Source of the DNA: Parietichytrium sp. I65-24A
Taxonomy: Eukaryota > Sar > Bigyra > Thraustochytrida > Thraustochytriidae
Direction of reading: 5' to 3'
NCBI GenBank assembly: GCA_012862575.1
Contig: BLSF01000139.1
Span: 1-39,392 of the forward strand
DNA length: 39,392 bases
Within the stretch, counting starts at the first letter, position 1, and each line of letters starts with the position of its first letter. The notes beneath the pieces were generated by a model that saw nothing but the letters and a program-made list of their open reading frames with translations, made no database searches and was not told the origin of the DNA. A program made the position numbers and the translations under genes. This document shows, one piece after another, positions 24,195 to 39,392 of this stretch.

Positions 24195-25733
24195 TTAGTC
24201 GGAGTCATTTATCGAAGACGCTGGATTGCCCTTTAAGCGTTTACTCTTCGTCAACATGCAAAGCGCCGATTCGTCCTTGCAGCAAGAAGAAGTATTGTCT
24301 AGAGATCTCTTCTTCACACGCGGAGAAACCACTTCTAAATCCATCGCCTCGGACTCTTCCAAAAGCCCGCACTCCACCACAATGACATCGCGCTCGGCAG
24401 AGAGGCCCAATGCCCACTCTGGACTGCATTCTGATTTGCCTAGCCCAGAAAGACTACAATCCGACACAAACATCAAGCTATACAAGTTGGGGTCCCCTTC
24501 ACATTTTTGGCTCAAGCTAGAGTCTTTGTGTGGCAGTTTGGCTTCATCGCCACGCCTCGCTGGGTCTGGACAGTTGGCCCTCAACACTCGAGCACGGGAA
24601 GAAGATGTCGTGTTTTCCTTGCAGCGTCTCACCTTCCGCTTCAAATGAGCTGTTTTGATGTGCCTTCGGAGATCTCCAGGTGACGGAAATGCTTTCCCAC
24701 ACTCGCTGCACTCAAAATCTTTCTGCTTTAAATGAACTGTTTTGATGTGCTTTCGAAGACTTCTAGCTGCTGCAAATGTATTGCCACATTCATCACACTC
24801 GAAATCTTTCTGTTTCAAATGAACTGTTTTGATGTGAGTTCGAAGACTTCCAGCTGCTGTAAATGCATTGCCACATTCATCACACTCGAAATCTTTCTGC
24901 TTTAAATGAACTGTTTTGATGTGCTTTCGAAGACTTCCAGCTGCTGTGAATGCATTGCCACATTCATCACACTCGAAATCTTTCTGCTTTAAATGTACTG
25001 TTTTGATGTGAATTCGAAGACTTGCAGCTACTGTAAATGCATTGCCACATTCATCACACTTGAAATCTTTCTGCTTCAAATGAACTGTTTTGATGTGAGT
25101 TCGAAGATTTTCAGCTAACGTAAATGCTTTCCCACACTCGCCGCACTCGAAATCTTTCTGTTTCAGATGAACTGTTTTGATGTGAATTCGAAGATTTCCA
25201 GCTGACGTAAATGCTTTCCCACACTCGCCGCACTCGAAATCTTTCTGCTTCAAATGAACTGTTTTGATGTGAGTTCGAAGATGTCCAGCTTTTCCAAAAG
25301 CCCTCCCACATTCGCCGCACTCGAAATCTTTCTGCTTCATATGAACTCCTTTGACGTGCTTTCCAAGACTCCCAGCTGTTGTAAATGGTCTTCCGCAGTC
25401 CTCGCACTCAAACTCTCTCTGCTTTGTGTGAACTGTCTTACGGTTTTCCCGAACGCGTCTCGCTCTCCCAGACGCTTCGCCACACTCTTCGCGCCGGCGC
25501 CTTCTCTCCCTCGGGTTTGCGTGCAGCCCCATTCTTAATCTTCCCAGCCCGTTTGCGCGATCTGACTTTGGACTTCGTTGCACCTTCCTCCTTGTCCTCG
25601 CAACTCCTGCGGTCACTGCGTTGTGGAGTTCATCTACGTGTACACGCCAAAATTCAATTGACAAGCTGTGCGAAGTGTACATTTGTTCTACCAGCGCTAC
25701 GGACTCTGTTACCTGAATTCTGAAGTCAATCAT
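24195..25733 (-). CDS. C2H2 zinc-finger protein, nine fingers (paralogue A)
   Basis: About 512 residues if started at the ATG at 25733; ATGs at 25682 and 25532 are also possible. The frame is open to 26057, but the segment above about 26028 matches the 3' flank of the neighbouring paralogue and cannot be coding. Nine fingers follow C-x2-C-x12-H-x4-H with linker LKQKDFE, a 29-residue period. A tenth, N-terminal finger (EECGEASGRARRVRENRKTVH) is degenerate and lacks its first Cys. Finger consensus is FECDECGNAFTAAGSLRKH. The C-terminal tail, after a basic stretch, ends with a motif shared with paralogue B (PHKD-SLS; SPR-x-KKR; NPASSINDSD). Probably a nuclear DNA-binding protein. The tail may recruit a partner; that is inference. 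An N-terminal exon could be missing. Confidence 0.85.
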   Translation of the reverse strand: MIDFRIQVTESVALVEQMYTSHSLSIEFWRVHVDELHNAVTAGVARTRRKVQRSPKSDRANGLGRLRMGLHANPRERRRRREECGEASGRARRVRENRKTVHTKQREFECEDCGRPFTTAGSLGKHVKGVHMKQKDFECGECGRAFGKAGHLRTHIKTVHLKQKDFECGECGKAFTSAGNLRIHIKTVHLKQKDFECGECGKAFTLAENLRTHIKTVHLKQKDFKCDECGNAFTVAASLRIHIKTVHLKQKDFECDECGNAFTAAGSLRKHIKTVHLKQKDFECDECGNAFTAAGSLRTHIKTVHLKQKDFECDECGNTFAAARSLRKHIKTVHLKQKDFECSECGKAFPSPGDLRRHIKTAHLKRKVRRCKENTTSSSRARVLRANCPDPARRGDEAKLPHKDSSLSQKCEGDPNLYSLMFVSDCSLSGLGKSECSPEWALGLSAERDVIVVECGLLEESEAMDLEVVSPRVKKRSLDNTSSCCKDESALCMLTKSKRLKGNPASSINDSD

Positions 25734-26183
25734 GATCTGACTGTGAGTGAGTTTGCATAAGATACACGCTGTGTGGACCTTCATCCCATGCCATCTCGCA
25801 GGGACCATGGGTATCCATTTGACAAGACAAGAAAGACAAAGAAATGAGAAGCACGACGAATGCCTCGATGCACGAGCGACCGTTCCAGTTTTCTGACAGG
25901 TTTCAATGGAATACATTTTCCTTTTGTTAAATTGCGAGTCATGATTCTGTGTCTGATAAGCTGAGGGAAGCTCATCAACAAACAGCAACCAAAATGAGAA
26001 GAGAAGACAGAAAAAATGTCGAAACTGTAAGCTGGAATACTGTCGAAGATCGATCAACGGAAGTCCAAACTTCAGTAGCTTCCTAAAGCGTGAACGCGGA
26101 AACTGCCTGTGAGGATGATTCCAGGATGCTGACCAACAAATGGATCTCTCAGAACAATGATGTATACACTCTGAGCATTGATG
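25734..26183. other. Spacer between tandem zinc-finger genes
   Basis: 450 bases: 5' flank of paralogue A and 3' flank of paralogue B. 26028-26183 is closely related to 24030-24194 (GTCGAAACTGTAAGCTGG against GTTGAAACTGTGAGTTGG, and ACCAACAAATGG in both), which shows that the duplicated unit included the downstream flank. Confidence 0.7.
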
Positions 26184-28622
26184 TCAGTCGGAGTTACTCA
26201 TCGAAGACGCAGGATTGCCCTTTATACGTTTACACTCGCTCACAATGCAGAGTGCCAACATGTGAAGCGCCGATTCGTTCCCGTCGCAACATTGGGGATT
26301 CTCCCGGGGTCTCTTCTCCCCTCGCGGTGAGGACATTTCGCTCAAGCTAAAGTCTTTATGCGGCGGTAGGGCTTTATCGTCACCATTGTAGCTTTTCTCT
26401 TTCTGCTTCAAATGAATTGTGTTGATGTGAGTTCGAAGACTTGCAGCTCTTGTGAACACTTCACCACACTCGCCGCAATGATAATCTTTCTGCTTCGGAT
26501 GAACTGCTTTGTTATGCCTCTCAAGGTGTCCAGCCGTCGTAAATTCTTTTCCGCATTCGCCGCACTCGAATTCTTCCTGCTTCGGGTGAACTGCTTCGTT
26601 ATGCCTTTCGAGGTGTCCAGCCGTCTTTAATTCTTTTCCGCCTTCGCCGCACTCGAATTCTTCCTGCTTCGGATGAACTACTTTGTTATGCCTTTCAAGG
26701 TGTCCAGCCGTCCTATACTTTGTCCCGCATTCGCCGCACTCGAATTCTTCCTGCTTCGGATGAACTGCTTCGTTATGCCTTTCAAGGTGTCCAGCCGTCT
26801 TTAATTCTTTCCCGCATTCGCCGCACTCGAATTCTTCCTGCTTCGGATGAACTACTTTGTTATGCCTTTCAAGGTGTCCAGCCGTCTTTAATTCTTTCCC
26901 GCATTCGCCGCACTCGAATTCTTCCTGCTTCGGATGAACTACTTTGTTATGCCTTTCAAGGTGTCCAGCCGTCCTATACTTTTTCCCGCATTCGCCGCAC
27001 TCGAATTCTTCCTGCTTCGGATGAACTACTTTGTTATGCCTTTCAAGGTGTCCAGCCGTCCTATACTTTTTCCCGCATTCGCCGCACTCGAATTCTTCCT
27101 GCTTCGGATGAACTACTTTGTTATGCCTTTCAAGGTGTCCAGCCGTCCTATACTTTTTCCCGCATTCGCCGCACTCGAATTCTTCCTGCTTCGGATGAAC
27201 TGCTTTGTTATGCCTTTCAAGGTGTCCAGCCGTCGTAAATTCTTTCCCGCATTCGCCGCACTCGAAGTCTTCCTGCTTCGGATGAACTGTTCTGTTATGC
27301 CTTTCAAGGTGTCCAGCCGAAGTATATTTCTTCCCGCATTCGCCGCACTCGAAGTCTTCCTGCTTCGGATGAACTGTTCTGTTGTGCCTTTCAAGGTGTC
27401 CAGCCGAAGTATATTTTTTCCCGCATTCGCCGCACTCGAATTCTTCCTGCTCCAGGTGAACTGTCTTATCGTGCTTTTGAAAATGTTTACATTTCCCTAA
27501 TGTCTCCCCACACTCGCCGCACTCGACATTTTTTTTCTTCTTCCAATGAACTCTTTTAATGTGAGTTCGAAGATTTCCAGCCGTTGTGAATGATTTCCCA
27601 CACTCGCCACACTCGCAATCATTCTCCTTCAGATGGACATTTTGGACGTGAGTTCGAAGATTTACACGTGTTCCAAACACTTTCCCACACTCGTCGCACT
27701 CGAAATTTTTCTGCTTCAAGTGAATTGTTTTGGTGTGAATTCGAAGATATGCAGCTGATGAAAATGCTTTCCCACACTCGCCGCACTCGTAATTTTTCTG
27801 TTTCAAATGAACTGTTTGCACGTGAATTTGAAGCTGGCTAGCTTTTACAAATGGTTTCCCACACACGCCGCACTCGAAATCTCTCTGCTTCAAATGTACA
27901 GCTTTGACATGAACTCGAAGGCTTCCATTTTCTCCAAACGCCTTCCCGCACTCGTCGCACTTGAAATCTTTCTGCTTCAAATGAACTGTTTTGATGTGAG
28001 TTCGAAGATACGCTGCTGTTGTAAATGAATTCCCGCACTCGTCGCAATGAAAATTTTTCTGCTTCAAATGAATCGTTTTGATGTGAGTTCGAAGACTTCC
28101 AGCTGTCGTAAATACATTCTTACACTCGCTGCACGTGAAAACTCTCTCCTTCAAATGAGCTACTTTGACGTGAATTCGAAGTTTTCCAGCTGTTAAAAAC
28201 GCTTTTCCACACTCACCGCACTGGAAATCTTTCTGTTTCGAATGCGCTGCCTTGCTGTGAGTTCGAAGATGCGCAACTGACGGAAACGCTCTCCCACACT
28301 CGCCGCACTCGAACTCTTTCTGCTTCCTATGCTTCGAATGAGCCATTGCAGTGTGTCTCCGAAGAGACTCAGCTGTCGCGAATGGCTTTTCACATTTGTC
28401 GCACTCAAACTTCTTCTTCTTCTTCTTCCGATGAACTTTTTCCTTGTGATTTTCAAGACTTGCAGCTCTTACATATTCCACCCCGCACTCGTCGCACTTG
28501 AACCCGCCATTACCCTTCTTCTTATTATTATTATTCTTATCATTCTCTTGGACTGATTCCTGCTCTCCATTCACGCTAACTTCCCCTCCTTCTTCGCGCT
28601 TCCTCTTCACTTGCCGCACCAT
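26184..28622 (-). CDS. C2H2 zinc-finger protein, 24 fingers (paralogue B)
   Basis: 812 residues from the ATG at 28622; the frame continues to a TTG at 28685 that is unlikely to be used. A basic N-terminus (VRQVKRKREEGG, then an Asn/Lys run) may be a nuclear signal. Twenty-four fingers follow, C-x2-C-x12-H-x4-H with 7-residue linkers LKQKDFE or PKQEEFE in place of TGEKPF. Fingers 1-12 are diverse. Fingers 13-23 are near-copies (ECGKKYRTAGHLERHNKVVH and close variants). Finger 22 has Gly for its second Cys (GEGGKELKTAG) and should not bind zinc normally. The tail carries the motif shared with paralogue A (PHKDFSLSE; SPRGEKR; CC; SECKRIKGNPASS) and ends SNSD. Likely a nuclear DNA-binding protein; targets are unknown. 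Confidence 0.9.
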   Translation of the reverse strand: MVRQVKRKREEGGEVSVNGEQESVQENDKNNNNKKKGNGGFKCDECGVEYVRAASLENHKEKVHRKKKKKKFECDKCEKPFATAESLRRHTAMAHSKHRKQKEFECGECGRAFPSVAHLRTHSKAAHSKQKDFQCGECGKAFLTAGKLRIHVKVAHLKERVFTCSECKNVFTTAGSLRTHIKTIHLKQKNFHCDECGNSFTTAAYLRTHIKTVHLKQKDFKCDECGKAFGENGSLRVHVKAVHLKQRDFECGVCGKPFVKASQLQIHVQTVHLKQKNYECGECGKAFSSAAYLRIHTKTIHLKQKNFECDECGKVFGTRVNLRTHVQNVHLKENDCECGECGKSFTTAGNLRTHIKRVHWKKKKNVECGECGETLGKCKHFQKHDKTVHLEQEEFECGECGKKYTSAGHLERHNRTVHPKQEDFECGECGKKYTSAGHLERHNRTVHPKQEDFECGECGKEFTTAGHLERHNKAVHPKQEEFECGECGKKYRTAGHLERHNKVVHPKQEEFECGECGKKYRTAGHLERHNKVVHPKQEEFECGECGKKYRTAGHLERHNKVVHPKQEEFECGECGKELKTAGHLERHNKVVHPKQEEFECGECGKELKTAGHLERHNEAVHPKQEEFECGECGTKYRTAGHLERHNKVVHPKQEEFECGEGGKELKTAGHLERHNEAVHPKQEEFECGECGKEFTTAGHLERHNKAVHPKQKDYHCGECGEVFTRAASLRTHINTIHLKQKEKSYNGDDKALPPHKDFSLSEMSSPRGEKRPRENPQCCDGNESALHMLALCIVSECKRIKGNPASSMSNSD
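26490..27445 (-). repeat. Eleven near-identical 87-bp zinc-finger units
   Basis: This block encodes fingers 13-23 of paralogue B. Each 87-bp unit covers one finger plus linker. On the plus strand the units share GCATTCGCCGCACTCGAA and AAGGTGTCCAGCCG. Differences are confined to a few codons (KKYRT, KELKT or KEFTT; HNKVV, HNEAV or HNRTV). This indicates recent unequal crossing-over or conversion. The array also creates long meaningless antisense open frames. Confidence 0.93.
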
Positions 28623-29129
28623 TCTCTCTCTCACGCACTCCGTCCTTTCCGTCCCGGCCACTCCTGTTCCGGTAATGCCAAACAAAGCGTCCCCGCCTCA
28701 GATTCGTTCCCGCGTTTCCCGCGTTCGCGAAAAGATCGAGAGGGAAATAGGGAAATGCCGGTCTGGATTTCGTTCCGCTCGCAGCGCGTACAGTCTGCGT
28801 ACTGAGGACTAGTACGACACTTGAAGGGACAAGAGAAGGGCAGCGACGCACCACAGCCAGTAGAGAAATGAGAGAGAGAAAGAAAGGGGATCTTGCTGTT
28901 CGTTTTTGTTCGTTTTTGTTCGGTTTGCTAACTGAAATTTTTCTGTTCAGTGGAATTCTGGAAAATGTGGGAAATATCTCTGCGAAGAGCGCTCCCTGTT
29001 CGTCGAAAGTTTTTTCCCCTCCCTCAACATCCCTCAACGCAATCGGGTTTTACGGTAAACATTGGCAAATTCTATTCTGCGACAGGGGCTTCGATGTCCA
29101 CTGTAATGCAATTTTAGTATCTTCGACTG

Positions 29130-35890: not shown

Positions 35891-36356
35891 CAGTCAATCA
35901 ATCAATTACTGCAGCGTTGCTGCGTTGCCGCGGGTATCCAGTTCCCTCTTCCACTGTGTTTTCGCCCGACTTTACGAGTATGCAGAGTATGTGTTCGAGC
36001 TAGCCAAAAGTGTGCACTAGCAATTTTTACTCCAGTCATAGTATAGCAACACACACATAGTGCTTCCATAACTCTAGTGCTACTCTAGAGAAACATAGAG
36101 AAAAACACACTGGACCCGCATGAGACACACATAGACATATAGACACACAGACAAGAAGACAAGGTTGCACACGTTTGATTTCAATTGAGAGAGACGGAGC
36201 GCGTACCACGGCCAGTCTTCCAACCCGAATTGCGAAGCGTTCGATCAGCAGGGAAACGCGGAAGGCAAGCAAGTACGGGAAGGAGAGAGGCGAGCAAGAG
36301 CTGCGAGCGGGAAGATATATAGATAGATATATAGATCGAGATCAAGATATAGAAAA

Positions 36357-39300
36357 ATGAGCAAACAAACGAGCCGGCCAAGTGTGTTCCTGTCGCACGG
36401 CAACGTCTCCAGCGATATCGCGAAAGTGCTTTGCAAATTGCTCGAGGAGAAACACGGCCTGGCTGTGTCTGCCTCATCTACGTTTACCGAGGGTGCAGAT
36501 GGCGGACGCAAGTCTCTGACCAGATCGAAGGCCGACACCATCACCGCCGCAGACATGGTGTTCGTACTTGTGGACGAAGAGTACAATCAGAGCGTCGGCG
36601 GCGGGGGTTCCAGCCGGAACAAGGCCTGCTTGAGTGAGTTTGATCTCGCAGTGCAAGAAAAGGGTACGCTCCGGATGCTGCCGGTTGTCACGAGTGCAGG
36701 AATGGGGAGCCAGGCGGCTTGGAGCCCACGACTCAAGATGGAGCTCGGAGAGATGCTGTACATTGATGCAACCTCCGCCGGCAGGGAGTCTAAAGTTGCC
36801 AGCGAGATGGCCTCACGTCTCGCATTGCGCGTAGGGTACCAAGACGACCAGGTCTGGGATGTGTTCCTGTCACATGACTGGGGTAAAGACAGCATCAACC
36901 ACAGAAAAGTCGCTTCCATCGCCGTCCGACTGGAACATTTGGGACTCAAAGTGTGGGTGGATGCCGGAGAGAACGGGAAAGGTGAGATGGCGAAAGGGTC
37001 TGGCATTGGTCAGGCCATGGCTAATGGGATCAAGAAGTCCAGGTTTGTTGTCGTCTGCGTGACCGCCAATTACAGTAGCAAGGTTGATATGGACTGGATT
37101 GACACCAGGACGAATGACAACTGCCTTCGCGAGTTCAACGGATCAGTGATGGAGAAAGGCATCACTGGAATGATTCCGCTGGTGATGGAGCCAGAGATGA
37201 AGGCCAAAGGGCGGTGGGGAGACCGGCTCAAGATGGATCTTGGCGATCTCGAAGTCGTGGACGGGTGCCACGACGAACATTCGCAGGGGAAAGACTTGGA
37301 GGAGAGAAAAAGCAGCATTGCTCGTGCGTTGAAAGAGTATGTGGAGAAGAAGCGTGATGACAAGTACTATGGACTGAGTTCTTCGGGCAGATCACGTGTC
37401 AATTTGTTTCAGGTTCAGCTTCCGAACCCAGCGAGCGAAGCCATGTCGAGGGCAAAGGAGTTTGCACCTGGTACACGGCAGTGGATCCTTGACGCGGTCT
37501 ATCAATGGTACACAAGACCGGAGGACGAGTGGACAAGGGCTTTTGCACTTCTTGGCGGCCCTGGAGTGGGTAAGTCCACCCTAGCCGCAGAGCTGGCGAG
37601 GCGAGGTGGATTGTATGATGGGAGCCTGGTGCCACTCGTTGGGCTCGAAAAAACTAACAATATACCAAGTGACTCCCTTAGAAGCAAGGAGTATCTCTTG
37701 CCTGTAAAAGAAGCGACGTTGAGTGTAAACAGCATGACAAGTAAGAAGCTCACCGAGTCAAAAACGACTAGCCTCCTGAAAGTCTTCCAAACTTTCACCA
37801 ATCAACTAATCAGCGCCGTGCCTGGCACGTATCGTAAGGAGGCGTGGCTGGCAAAGAATCTGCAGAGGTCGAGCGAAACATCAGTGGAACCAACAGACGC
37901 AATTCACGTTGGAGCATACCACTCCTTCAAACATGACGACTCCAGAACGAGTGACCTGCTCCAAGTATTCAAATCCATCGCCAACCAACTGAGTCGCGTC
38001 ATTCCTGGTTTCAAGAAGGAGTTGACCACCAGCTTAGAGAACCTTGCAAAGGCTGAGGATGGCACGTCAGACCCAGGTAAAATGTTGATCAAGCTGACGA
38101 AAATGTCAATCCCCGAAGCCTTTCAGGTTTTGATTGCAACCCCGTGCAGAAGTGTTTCGGGCCCTTACGTTCGGATTTTGGTCGTTTTTGATGCTCTGGA
38201 CGAGTGCGAGGAAGAGTCTCTGAAGAAACTTTTTGCTGTGCTTCACAACAAATGGATGAAAGACACACCAAAATGGCTTGGGACAATACTCACTTCTCGC
38301 CCGGAGAGCTACATCCCAGACAAGCTGAGAAAATTTAACCCTACAATAATCGAAGCCGAGGTGAAGAAGAATAACGAGGATATGGCTATCTACCTCCGGT
38401 ACCGCTTATCTGGCCTCGTTCAAGAATCAGAGATGAACACGGTCGTGGATGAGCTGGTGAAGCGCTCGGAAGGAAAGTTCATATACGCTCGATTCTTGGA
38501 CGACATGCTCGCAAACACGGCCTCGCTCTCACTGAAGTCCCTTGAAGATTACGACAGATTCCCGTGTGGTCTGGATGATCTATACGCGGAGTATTATGAG
38601 CGCCTCAGTGCGAAACTCGGAAACAAGTTGTACACTGAGCTGCTTTCGCTCATGGTGGTAGCTCGCGAGCCTTTGCCAGAGTCGCTGGTGCGCAAGGTGC
38701 TTGCTAGGCACATCCTGAAGGAGAGCAGCGATTCTGACTCCGATGACAGCGATGATGAGAAGGAGCGAAATGCGGCCACGAACAGATTGCTCGGAAAGGC
38801 AAAGAATATGCTATACTTGAGTCCAGAGGGACGCTTGCAGTTTGTGCACAAGTCCATGGCAGATTGGCTTGTCAATAGCGAACTCGAGGGTCGACCCCCA
38901 GAATTGGTTATTAGACGTAAGGGGGCGCTGAAGGTCATGGGAAAGGTACTGGCTGAAGAAGAGGGTGACCCCTTTTCCCTTCGACATTTACTCTTTCATC
39001 TGTGCAAGGTCAAAAGGTTTGCTGAAGTTGACCAACATTTGTTGGACTTTGAGTGGCTCTTGCGTTCACTGTCGAGCGGCGTCCAAGCGAGCCAGCTGGT
39101 GGCGGACATGGACGAAGCGTACGCAGAAGAGAAGCGCGATCAGAATGCGGATGACGTGCTTCGGGTTCTCGATATGGCCTCAAACATCCTGGCTCGCGAC
39201 CCGCTCGAACTGGCCTCCCAGCTGTGGGGCCGGCTTCCGCGCGACCATGTGATGCTCGAACGAGACTTTGAGGACGCGATGCCAAAGCCGTGGCTCAAGT

Positions 39301-39392
39301 TTCTCCAGCCCACACTCACGCCTGCGCGGTCCGCACTTCGCAAGGTGCTCGTCGGTCACACTAGTAATGTGACTAGCATCGCTAGCGACGGG
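36357..39392 (+). CDS. Tandem TIR-NACHT-WD40 protein (partial, runs off the end)
   Basis: 1012 codons open from the ATG at 36357 to the window edge, with no intron seen. Residues about 9-150 form a TIR-like domain (PSVFLSHGNVSSDIAKVLCK, then ADMVFVLVDEEYNQS and ACLSEFDLAV). Residues about 166-300 form a second, clearer one (VWDVFLSHDWGKD, LGLKVWVDAGENGKGEM, RFVVVCVTANYSSK, NCLREF). The NACHT ATPase starts near 395: Walker A LGGPGVGKST (399-408), Walker B ILVVFDALDEC (607-617), then GTILTSRPE. A helical region with an acidic insert (SSDSDSDDSDDE, near 785) follows, with a winged-helix-like HKSMADWL. The last codons (VLVGHTSNVTSIASDG) begin a WD40 repeat. This is STAND architecture: TIR effector, NACHT switch, WD40 sensor. 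TIR domains can cleave NAD or act as adaptors. The second TIR keeps a Glu (GKGEM) in the right area for catalysis. Cell-death or immune signalling is inferred. Confidence 0.9.
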   Translation, partial: MSKQTSRPSVFLSHGNVSSDIAKVLCKLLEEKHGLAVSASSTFTEGADGGRKSLTRSKADTITAADMVFVLVDEEYNQSVGGGGSSRNKACLSEFDLAVQEKGTLRMLPVVTSAGMGSQAAWSPRLKMELGEMLYIDATSAGRESKVASEMASRLALRVGYQDDQVWDVFLSHDWGKDSINHRKVASIAVRLEHLGLKVWVDAGENGKGEMAKGSGIGQAMANGIKKSRFVVVCVTANYSSKVDMDWIDTRTNDNCLREFNGSVMEKGITGMIPLVMEPEMKAKGRWGDRLKMDLGDLEVVDGCHDEHSQGKDLEERKSSIARALKEYVEKKRDDKYYGLSSSGRSRVNLFQVQLPNPASEAMSRAKEFAPGTRQWILDAVYQWYTRPEDEWTRAFALLGGPGVGKSTLAAELARRGGLYDGSLVPLVGLEKTNNIPSDSLRSKEYLLPVKEATLSVNSMTSKKLTESKTTSLLKVFQTFTNQLISAVPGTYRKEAWLAKNLQRSSETSVEPTDAIHVGAYHSFKHDDSRTSDLLQVFKSIANQLSRVIPGFKKELTTSLENLAKAEDGTSDPGKMLIKLTKMSIPEAFQVLIATPCRSVSGPYVRILVVFDALDECEEESLKKLFAVLHNKWMKDTPKWLGTILTSRPESYIPDKLRKFNPTIIEAEVKKNNEDMAIYLRYRLSGLVQESEMNTVVDELVKRSEGKFIYARFLDDMLANTASLSLKSLEDYDRFPCGLDDLYAEYYERLSAKLGNKLYTELLSLMVVAREPLPESLVRKVLARHILKESSDSDSDDSDDEKERNAATNRLLGKAKNMLYLSPEGRLQFVHKSMADWLVNSELEGRPPELVIRRKGALKVMGKVLAEEEGDPFSLRHLLFHLCKVKRFAEVDQHLLDFEWLLRSLSSGVQASQLVADMDEAYAEEKRDQNADDVLRVLDMASNILARDPLELASQLWGRLPRDHVMLERDFEDAMPKPWLKFLQPTLTPARSALRKVLVGHTSNVTSIASDG

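Follow-up and report, generated by a model that had tools for sequence, protein, structure and literature searches.

Tandem-TIR, NACHT and WD40 genes with hypervariable repeats in a probably non-opisthokont eukaryote

What would a microbial eukaryote do with a gene that places two TIR-like domains in front of a NACHT-WD40 switch? The gene lies at the end of the stretch of DNA analysed here, hereafter the window (contig BLSF01000139.1, positions 1 to 39,392; C139:1-39392 of a 42.54-Mb genome in 172 contigs), as a continuous open reading frame (ORF) of 1012 codons on the plus strand (36357..39392) that runs off the window end. An in-frame stop is present upstream at 36324, and the ATG at 36357 is the sole one in frame between the two; the product (P0001) comprises, in order, TIR, TIR, NACHT, a helical linker and the opening 13 residues of a WD40 array. 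Comparative analysis indicates that the gene is likely to belong to a family of cytosolic nonself receptors of the STAND/NLR type that has expanded recently and recombines, in a host that is probably a non-opisthokont microbial eukaryote. The best reading is a nonself-sensor repertoire that shuffling and selection have diversified and that signals via paired TIRs. The unexpected part of the family is its hypervariable WD40 sensor, which was invisible to the first-pass annotation because it lies outside the window.

A family of related genes

P0001 contains two stretches matched by Pfam TIR_2 (E 8.5e-17) and a NACHT-type P-loop that passes the cut-off of NPHP3_N (60.2 bits), whereas PF05729 NACHT reached 20.8 bits against a cut-off of 26.7. 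The protein matches at least 52 places in its own genome, of which at least 14, the window included, cover the first TIR (TIR1) wholly or partly (C139, C45, C30 twice, C10, C123, C49 twice, C24, C112, C128, C144, C65 and C95; one C49 copy and those on C144, C65 and C95 are fragments or bear stops). Because 14 places match the TIR1 region, the TIR-TIR-NACHT-WD40 arrangement is not due to chance. Complete, uninterrupted paralogues were read on C10 (1413 residues) and C24 (1484 residues), and the full-length paralogue proteins (P0002 and P0003) combine effector, P-loop switch and repeat sensor in one chain. The first-pass annotation, which had proposed two TIRs ahead of a NACHT-WD40 switch and a profile search for them, is borne out by these Pfam matches and paralogues.

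The window gene is a mosaic of its paralogues. Its nucleotide identity to the C45 copy is 100% at residues 210-309 and 69-79% over residues 570-789, and its identity to C30 is 94-96% over residues 530-669; the C45 piece contains 1906 N. Some copies are recent, as a near-identical array adjoins the C24 gene. Three headless WD40 tails that were fetched (C37, C126 and C113) end at, or at most 8 bases from, a contig end, which is expected if the assembly breaks inside near-identical arrays.

Searches for relatives covered prokaryotic, viral, phage and plasmid sequences rather than eukaryotic protein collections. Pattern scans of an 84,980-species collection found no relatives of the tandem region or of the second TIR (TIR2), and pattern or tblastn searches found no relatives of P0001 in phages, none of residues 1-341 in plasmids and none in viruses. 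NCBIfam yielded nothing for P0001 and one match far below cut-off for P0002. Partial PADLOC matches, at E 1e-6 to 1e-8, fell on the TIR2 part, and the WD40 part of the two full-length paralogues was also matched (HEAT-ARM_XIII, best 1.2e-24).

Hypervariable positions in the WD40 repeats

The last 13 residues of the frame (39354..39392, plus strand; GHTSNVTSIASDG) sit at the start of paralogue repeat 1. The number of repeats, which the first-pass annotation had wished to count beyond the window, was read from paralogue arrays as 5 (L007), 6 (L005), 10 (L003 and L009) or 12 (L006), the last one degenerate. Each repeat is 40 residues long; the backbone hardly varies, whereas positions 4, 5, 7, 21 and 23, next to the conserved V6 and D22, are hypervariable. 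Among 42 regular repeats from seven loci (49 found, seven of the last type dropped, with G1, H2, V6, V27 and W28 pre-fixed by the pattern), entropy reaches 2 bits solely at these five positions. A recount across eleven loci, anchored on W28 and G33 alone so that G1, H2, V6, D22 and V27 were left free, gave 57 distinct regular repeats after 11 of the last type were set aside (the 57 include one out-of-register stretch, from L004); entropy at the five positions was 3.0, 3.75, 3.3, 3.4 and 2.6 bits, respectively, and at most 1.5 bits at all other sites, with V6 retained in 54 of the 57 repeats and D22 in 52.

The five-site combinations are distinct in 38 of the 42 repeats. The proportion of nonsynonymous differences (pN) at the five variable codons is 2.95 times the proportion of synonymous differences (pS) at the other 35 (2.37-3.51 in 60 bootstraps of repeats), and pN/pS of the other 35 codons is 0.40. 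Sixteen pairs of distinct repeats have at most one difference across the 105 backbone bases, and 12 of these pairs differ at variable codons; two pairs with 0/105 backbone differences each differ at four of the five, with one synonymous change in eight. Repeats are 60-77% identical in three family arrays, versus 12-34% in six other WD40 proteins of the genome. Within-gene means are 0.66-0.88 at eight loci (L004 being two genes), with identity of at least 0.85 in 17 of 129 pairs, and nucleotide identity is 81.6% within loci (126 pairs, L004 again holding two genes) and 82.7% between loci (735 pairs).

In a model of the C10 array (mean pLDDT, the predicted local distance difference test, at least 87 per ten-residue block from 61 to 380; last 68 residues low), positions 4 and 5 are placed in the d-a loop, position 7 where strand a begins, and positions 21 and 23 in the b-c turn. 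Paoletti et al. 2007, in excerpts of PMC1805685, describe codons 7, 9, 25 and 27 of het-d and het-e of Podospora anserina as positively selected; these flank the conserved positions 8 and 26 and lie in the same loops, on the propeller's top face. By this model, the variable WD40 sites match the positions of diversifying selection in het-d/het-e. Since the blades share a backbone and differ at five positions on one face, each gene would display a different binding surface.

The likeness to the HNWD genes (het-d, het-e and het-r of P. anserina) extends to the combination of NACHT with a WD40 array of near-identical repeats, to exchange between paralogues and to varying repeat number. In both families pairs of variable positions flank a conserved residue (7 and 9 around 8 and 25 and 27 around 26 in HNWD; 5 and 7 around V6 and 21 and 23 around D22 in the present family), and these pairs lie in the d-a loop and the b-c turn. 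The present family differs in its repeat length (40 residues versus 42 in HNWD), in having the extra variable position 4, in a seemingly lower repeat identity (means of 66-88% at eight loci, as against more than 80-85% within a gene for HNWD) and in its host, which judging by EF-1alpha is probably not a fungus. HNWD proteins begin with a HET domain, and the family is not filed among them because two TIR_2 stretches take the place of that domain.

The WD40 array may sense a nonself ligand, of either pathogen or conspecific source, by analogy with such receptors. Dedication to allorecognition, the discrimination of conspecific self from nonself, instead of pathogen defence is conceivable but rather unlikely: the pattern of variable sites equals that of het-d/het-e, whose WD40 repeats read HET-C alleles of their own species according to excerpts of PMC1805685, PMC10197012 and PMC12222747, but pathogens could be sensed by the same WD40 design.

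Several observations weigh against reading the family as nonself sensors made diverse by shuffling and selection. The variable codons have a pN/pS of their own of about 1.0 and are saturated, and in 53 pairs with at least 97% backbone identity their one-nucleotide changes are nonsynonymous or synonymous in a ratio of 69:15 (4.6), versus 4.46 at random; because of this saturation and this random-like ratio, diversification in the sense of a ratio of nonsynonymous to synonymous substitution rates (dN/dS) above 1 is undemonstrated at these sites. Four of the 16 pairs with near-identical backbones have all five variable codons in common, and 13 of 42 repeats have their nearest neighbour in their own locus, versus 15% expected under free exchange. 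Of the loci read in this family, L003 and L006 alone are complete and free of interruption; all others have N, stops or contig ends. Finally, TIR1 has an atypical sequence, as described below.

Third-base C occurs at 7% of variable codons versus 38% in the repeat backbone (L003-L009 and L046-L049), and a Fisher test of C- against T-ending codons between variable sites and the TIR-NACHT part gave 4.7e-30, a value computed on non-independent codons. The depletion fits retained T-ending codons together with nonsynonymous change, which leaves part of it unexplained. It could also be attributed to a targeted mutator, for example one based on a retroelement, that makes the variable codons in place of ordinary mutation, shuffling and selection; the pairs with identical backbones and four of five variable codons changed, and the high rates of both synonymous and nonsynonymous change at these codons, would suit such a device. 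The array copy beside the C24 gene (L006 versus L046), however, has changed at 2 of its 45 variable codons and at 6 of the remaining 311, where a mutator would need a more than tenfold excess, and selection can also yield missing T-to-C with frequent T-to-A/G changes at third positions. Diversity-generating retroelements direct change at adenines, whereas here all three codon positions vary and backbone adenines are spared. A mutator of that type was rejected, as there was neither adenine-only change nor a hot spot in the recent copy, and targeted mutation of any kind is judged highly improbable. Ordinary mutation with diversifying selection, and with exchange between repeats homogenising the backbone, fits better than a mutator; mutation, diversifying selection and repeat exchange are also the model proposed for het-d/het-e in the excerpted text of PMC1805685.

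The family might, alternatively, be a repeat-bearing signalling family with no role in immunity, its repeat identity due to recent duplication and neutral homogenisation. The near-identical array side by side with the C24 gene attests to recent copies, but neutral homogenisation would not leave 5 of 40 codons saturated and the others near-identical, and this account is disfavoured as having very little probability.

WD40 arrays of another kind occur in L044 (C98:42500-48500) and L045 (C58:3500-9000), large ORFs in which a diverged array is followed by a hydrophobic multi-pass region that by eye resembles a TRP/ion channel.

The TIR domains and the NACHT switch

TIR1 (residues 9-158; 36381..36830, plus strand) and TIR2 (residues 166-335; 36852..37361, plus strand, with its best TIR_2 stretch at 169-295) are both predicted to be TIR folds. 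TIR1 by itself (36357-36830) scored 27.1 bits against TIR_2 (E 6.5e-6), near the cut-off of 28 bits. An AlphaFold2 model of residues 1-341, built from 11 sequences (mean pLDDT 72.6; predicted template modelling score, pTM, 0.54), gives a fair prediction of each TIR with low-confidence loops and an unreliable relative orientation of the two, and has TIR strand/helix order at residues 9-158 and 167-338. In a comparison by VIA, model residues 6-161 aligned with SPARTA TIRs (134 residues at 2.5 A, Z up to 15.5) and residues 166-330 with the SARM1 TIR (138 residues at 2.6 A, Z 14.7), plant TIRs following closely; among the 50 matches listed, those of both halves to solved TIRs have Z of 12.0-15.5. 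The structure prediction that would have refuted the first-pass annotation, a fold other than TIR at residues 9-150, was thus not obtained.

That annotation had also seen no clear catalytic glutamate in TIR1. A candidate is nevertheless present in helix C of each domain: E94 in CLSEF of TIR1 (36636..36638, plus strand) and E259 in CLREF of TIR2 (37131..37133, plus strand). Both are invariant in the 11 rows of the family alignment (two of them partial), and they share a single column, with Glu in every one of the 14 rows, when TIR1, TIR2 and other TIRs are aligned together. In a profile alignment, the TIR2 column coincides with the Glu of SDWCWDEL in Cat1 and of STWCLEEL in Roq1, and a profile of 17 TIR2-type domains matches Cat1 (best, E 9.7e-14), AbTir, Roq1 and SARM1. 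A TIR1-only profile found no credible match among solved structures (best E 0.099, an unrelated protein), and phmmer of the whole P0001 against PDB gave nothing at E 1.

The family may be read in two ways as regards TIR1. A catalytically silent TIR1, serving as a regulator or assembly surface with TIR2 as the sole NADase, is possible though somewhat doubtful. TIR1 is 30% identical to TIR2 and falls just under the Pfam cut-off, has VSAS and no WxD where TIR2 has VWVD after strand B, has a BB region that is longer than that of TIR2 and variable in length in the family and joint alignments, and has no credible solved relative by its own profile. On the other hand, E94 is invariant and in the TIR2 Glu column, the fold match of TIR1 is no worse than that of TIR2, and dN/dS (NG86 across family pairs) is 0.26 for TIR1 (35 pairs), as for TIR2 (0.26, 44 pairs), and 0.22 for the NACHT core (45 pairs), so that all three are under purifying selection. 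The earlier proposal of a divergent pseudo-TIR holds as to divergence; a decaying TIR1 is not supported, although a regulatory role for it is conceivable. Better candidates for dead TIRs in this genome are the single TIR-like N-terminal domains of two distant NACHT-WD40 paralogues (L032 and L033), because the residue aligned to the Glu is Q and D, respectively; these domains were assigned to TIRs by alignment, and they sit on very long branches in the tree.

An origin of TIR1 by duplication of TIR2 gained no support from a tree that leaves their sister relation unsettled and supports the TIR1 group at 100/100 and the TIR2 group at 97/94 and, against TIR1, at 100/100. The wider TIR repertoire of the genome comprises 38 TIR_2 matches, and includes ROC-COR-type ORFs with a terminal TIR (L012 by Pfam; L014, L017, L019, L022, L025, L026 and L029 by eye), ankyrin-TIR ORFs (L018 by Pfam; L023 by eye) and, outside the family, an ORF whose two TIR_2 stretches follow a long N-terminal region (L011, C1:345000-348500).

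The NACHT/STAND P-loop NTPase, identified by its NPHP3_N match, occupies about residues 371-745 (37467..38591, plus strand, edges approximate). Its Walker A motif, GGPGVGKST (residues 400-408; 37554..37580, plus strand), conforms to GGPGxGKS in all 11 family loci scanned (the window and L001-L010); the broken copy L042 has GRS instead. Walker B, ILVVFDALDE (residues 607-616; 38175..38204, plus strand), is found by pattern as this sequence or ILVIFDGLDE in 9 of the 11 loci, and as ILVIFDALDE in L004 and L008. Between them lies an insert of about 80 residues (431-510; 37647..37886, plus strand) that is absent from the paralogues compared and contains, by eye, a degenerate second SLLxVFxxxxNQL segment; residues 450-509 have 37-43% nucleotide identity to the paralogues aligning there. 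The winged-helix/helical linker (residues 746-999; 38592..39353, plus strand) has sub-threshold Pfam matches only, to a TANC1-type helix-turn-helix (808-895) and to APAF1_C (867-950; E 0.0036, below cut-off). In the NG86 comparison, whose segments run from TIR1 and TIR2 through linker plus P-loop to the NACHT core and the region after it, dN/dS is 0.14 for linker plus P-loop (41 pairs) and 0.34 for the last region (36 pairs).

Other NACHT-type P-loops occur in a second set of close paralogues (L034, L035, L036 and L041, on C18, C14, C9 and C123), with no TIR seen in the pieces read, and one ORF on C2 (L040:547-3246) combines a CHAT domain, an AAA_16/NPHP3_N-type P-loop and an SH2 domain.

From what is known of STAND and TIR proteins, the C-terminal propeller would act as the sensor, and ligand binding would free the NACHT switch for nucleotide exchange and oligomerisation. 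An oligomer of N chains would bring 2N TIR domains together, and the paired TIRs may cleave NAD+ or make an ADP-ribose-type signal whose effect would be to kill or alarm the cell; NADase activity of the family is thus putative. Excerpts of a review (PMC10487714) state that NADase activity of a plant TIR-NLR resistosome requires two TIR domains in proximity, and a tandem TIR could supply such a pair inside a single chain. In its fullest form, which is proposed tentatively, a eukaryote that is neither fungus nor animal would have convergently evolved a het-like hypervariable WD40 surface, nearly site for site, in a germline-shuffled repertoire in which TIR1 and TIR2 are unequal halves of a composite NADase, at 2N TIRs per resistosome.

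The host and known receptor systems

Among the window neighbours of the receptor gene are ORFs with C2H2 zinc fingers and an XPD-type DEAD_2 helicase; the contig is therefore eukaryotic. The first-pass annotation was right in placing the gene in a eukaryote and in assigning its architecture to the immune or cell-death type. Two of the zinc-finger ORFs form an adjacent pair (24195-28685, minus strand) with 8 and 15 finger matches. The EF-1alpha of the genome (L051) reads PWYKGPYLLEALDQI and lacks the insert seen in animals and fungi, which we take to be an opisthokont signature, and for this reason the host is probably neither fungus nor animal. Searches of the genome for a chlorophyll-binding protein found none, and for a pfaD-type polyunsaturated fatty acid synthase no match over cut-off.

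Several known systems resemble the family in part. Plant TIR-NLR resistosomes (RPP1, Roq1 and RUN1) share the N-terminal TIR with a helix-C Glu, the STAND switch and the C-terminal sensor; plant TIR-NLRs have NB-ARC, LRR and one TIR per chain. APAF-1 has the same order of switch, helical linker and WD40, to which the weak APAF1_C match may be added, but carries CARD and NB-ARC, in place of which the family has TIR-TIR and a NACHT-type P-loop. Bacterial TIR/NACHT defence STANDs and the Cat1 and SPARTA effectors have a TIR_2-type domain, and the best match of the TIR2-type profile is Cat1 by sequence, that of TIR1 SPARTA by fold. Dictyostelium TirE, as described in excerpts of the preprint PMC13142454, likewise has two diverged tandem TIRs in a protist protein; there they accompany RCC1 repeats, and those excerpts mention neither NACHT nor WD40. 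Brown-algal NB-ARC-TPR and LRR-ROCO proteins, according to excerpts of PMC11378527, are also candidate receptors with shuffled sensor repeats in hosts that are neither fungi nor animals, but their TPR/LRR units are shuffled as exons, whereas the WD40 arrays of the present family lie in a single uninterrupted ORF.

TIR-STANDs, the tandem TIRs of TirE and hypervariable WD40 repeats in fungi are known already, the last being near-identical repeats in excerpts of PMC4986451 and PMC12222747, and "undescribed system", the wording of the first-pass annotation, is too strong for the architecture. In the open-licence literature, judged mostly from listings, no report was found of the combination of TIR-TIR, NACHT and hypervariable WD40 or of hypervariable near-identical WD40 repeats in a protist; the phrase "TIR-NACHT-WD40" was absent from the open-licence literature searched, and titles and abstract openings there yielded no protist NLRs with repeat conservation. 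The TIR atlas in the preprint PMC13142454, in its excerpted text, counts six purely eukaryotic TIR clades as uncharacterised.

The tandem TIR bears on whether the TIR pair that plants form between chains can form within one chain. Among the fungal repertoires with near-identical repeats and hypervariable contact residues, some mediate self/nonself recognition. If the same positions vary in a TIR-STAND of a probably non-opisthokont protist, the WD40 propeller would be a recurrent solution for fast-evolving recognition, and such receptor repertoires would exist beyond fungi.

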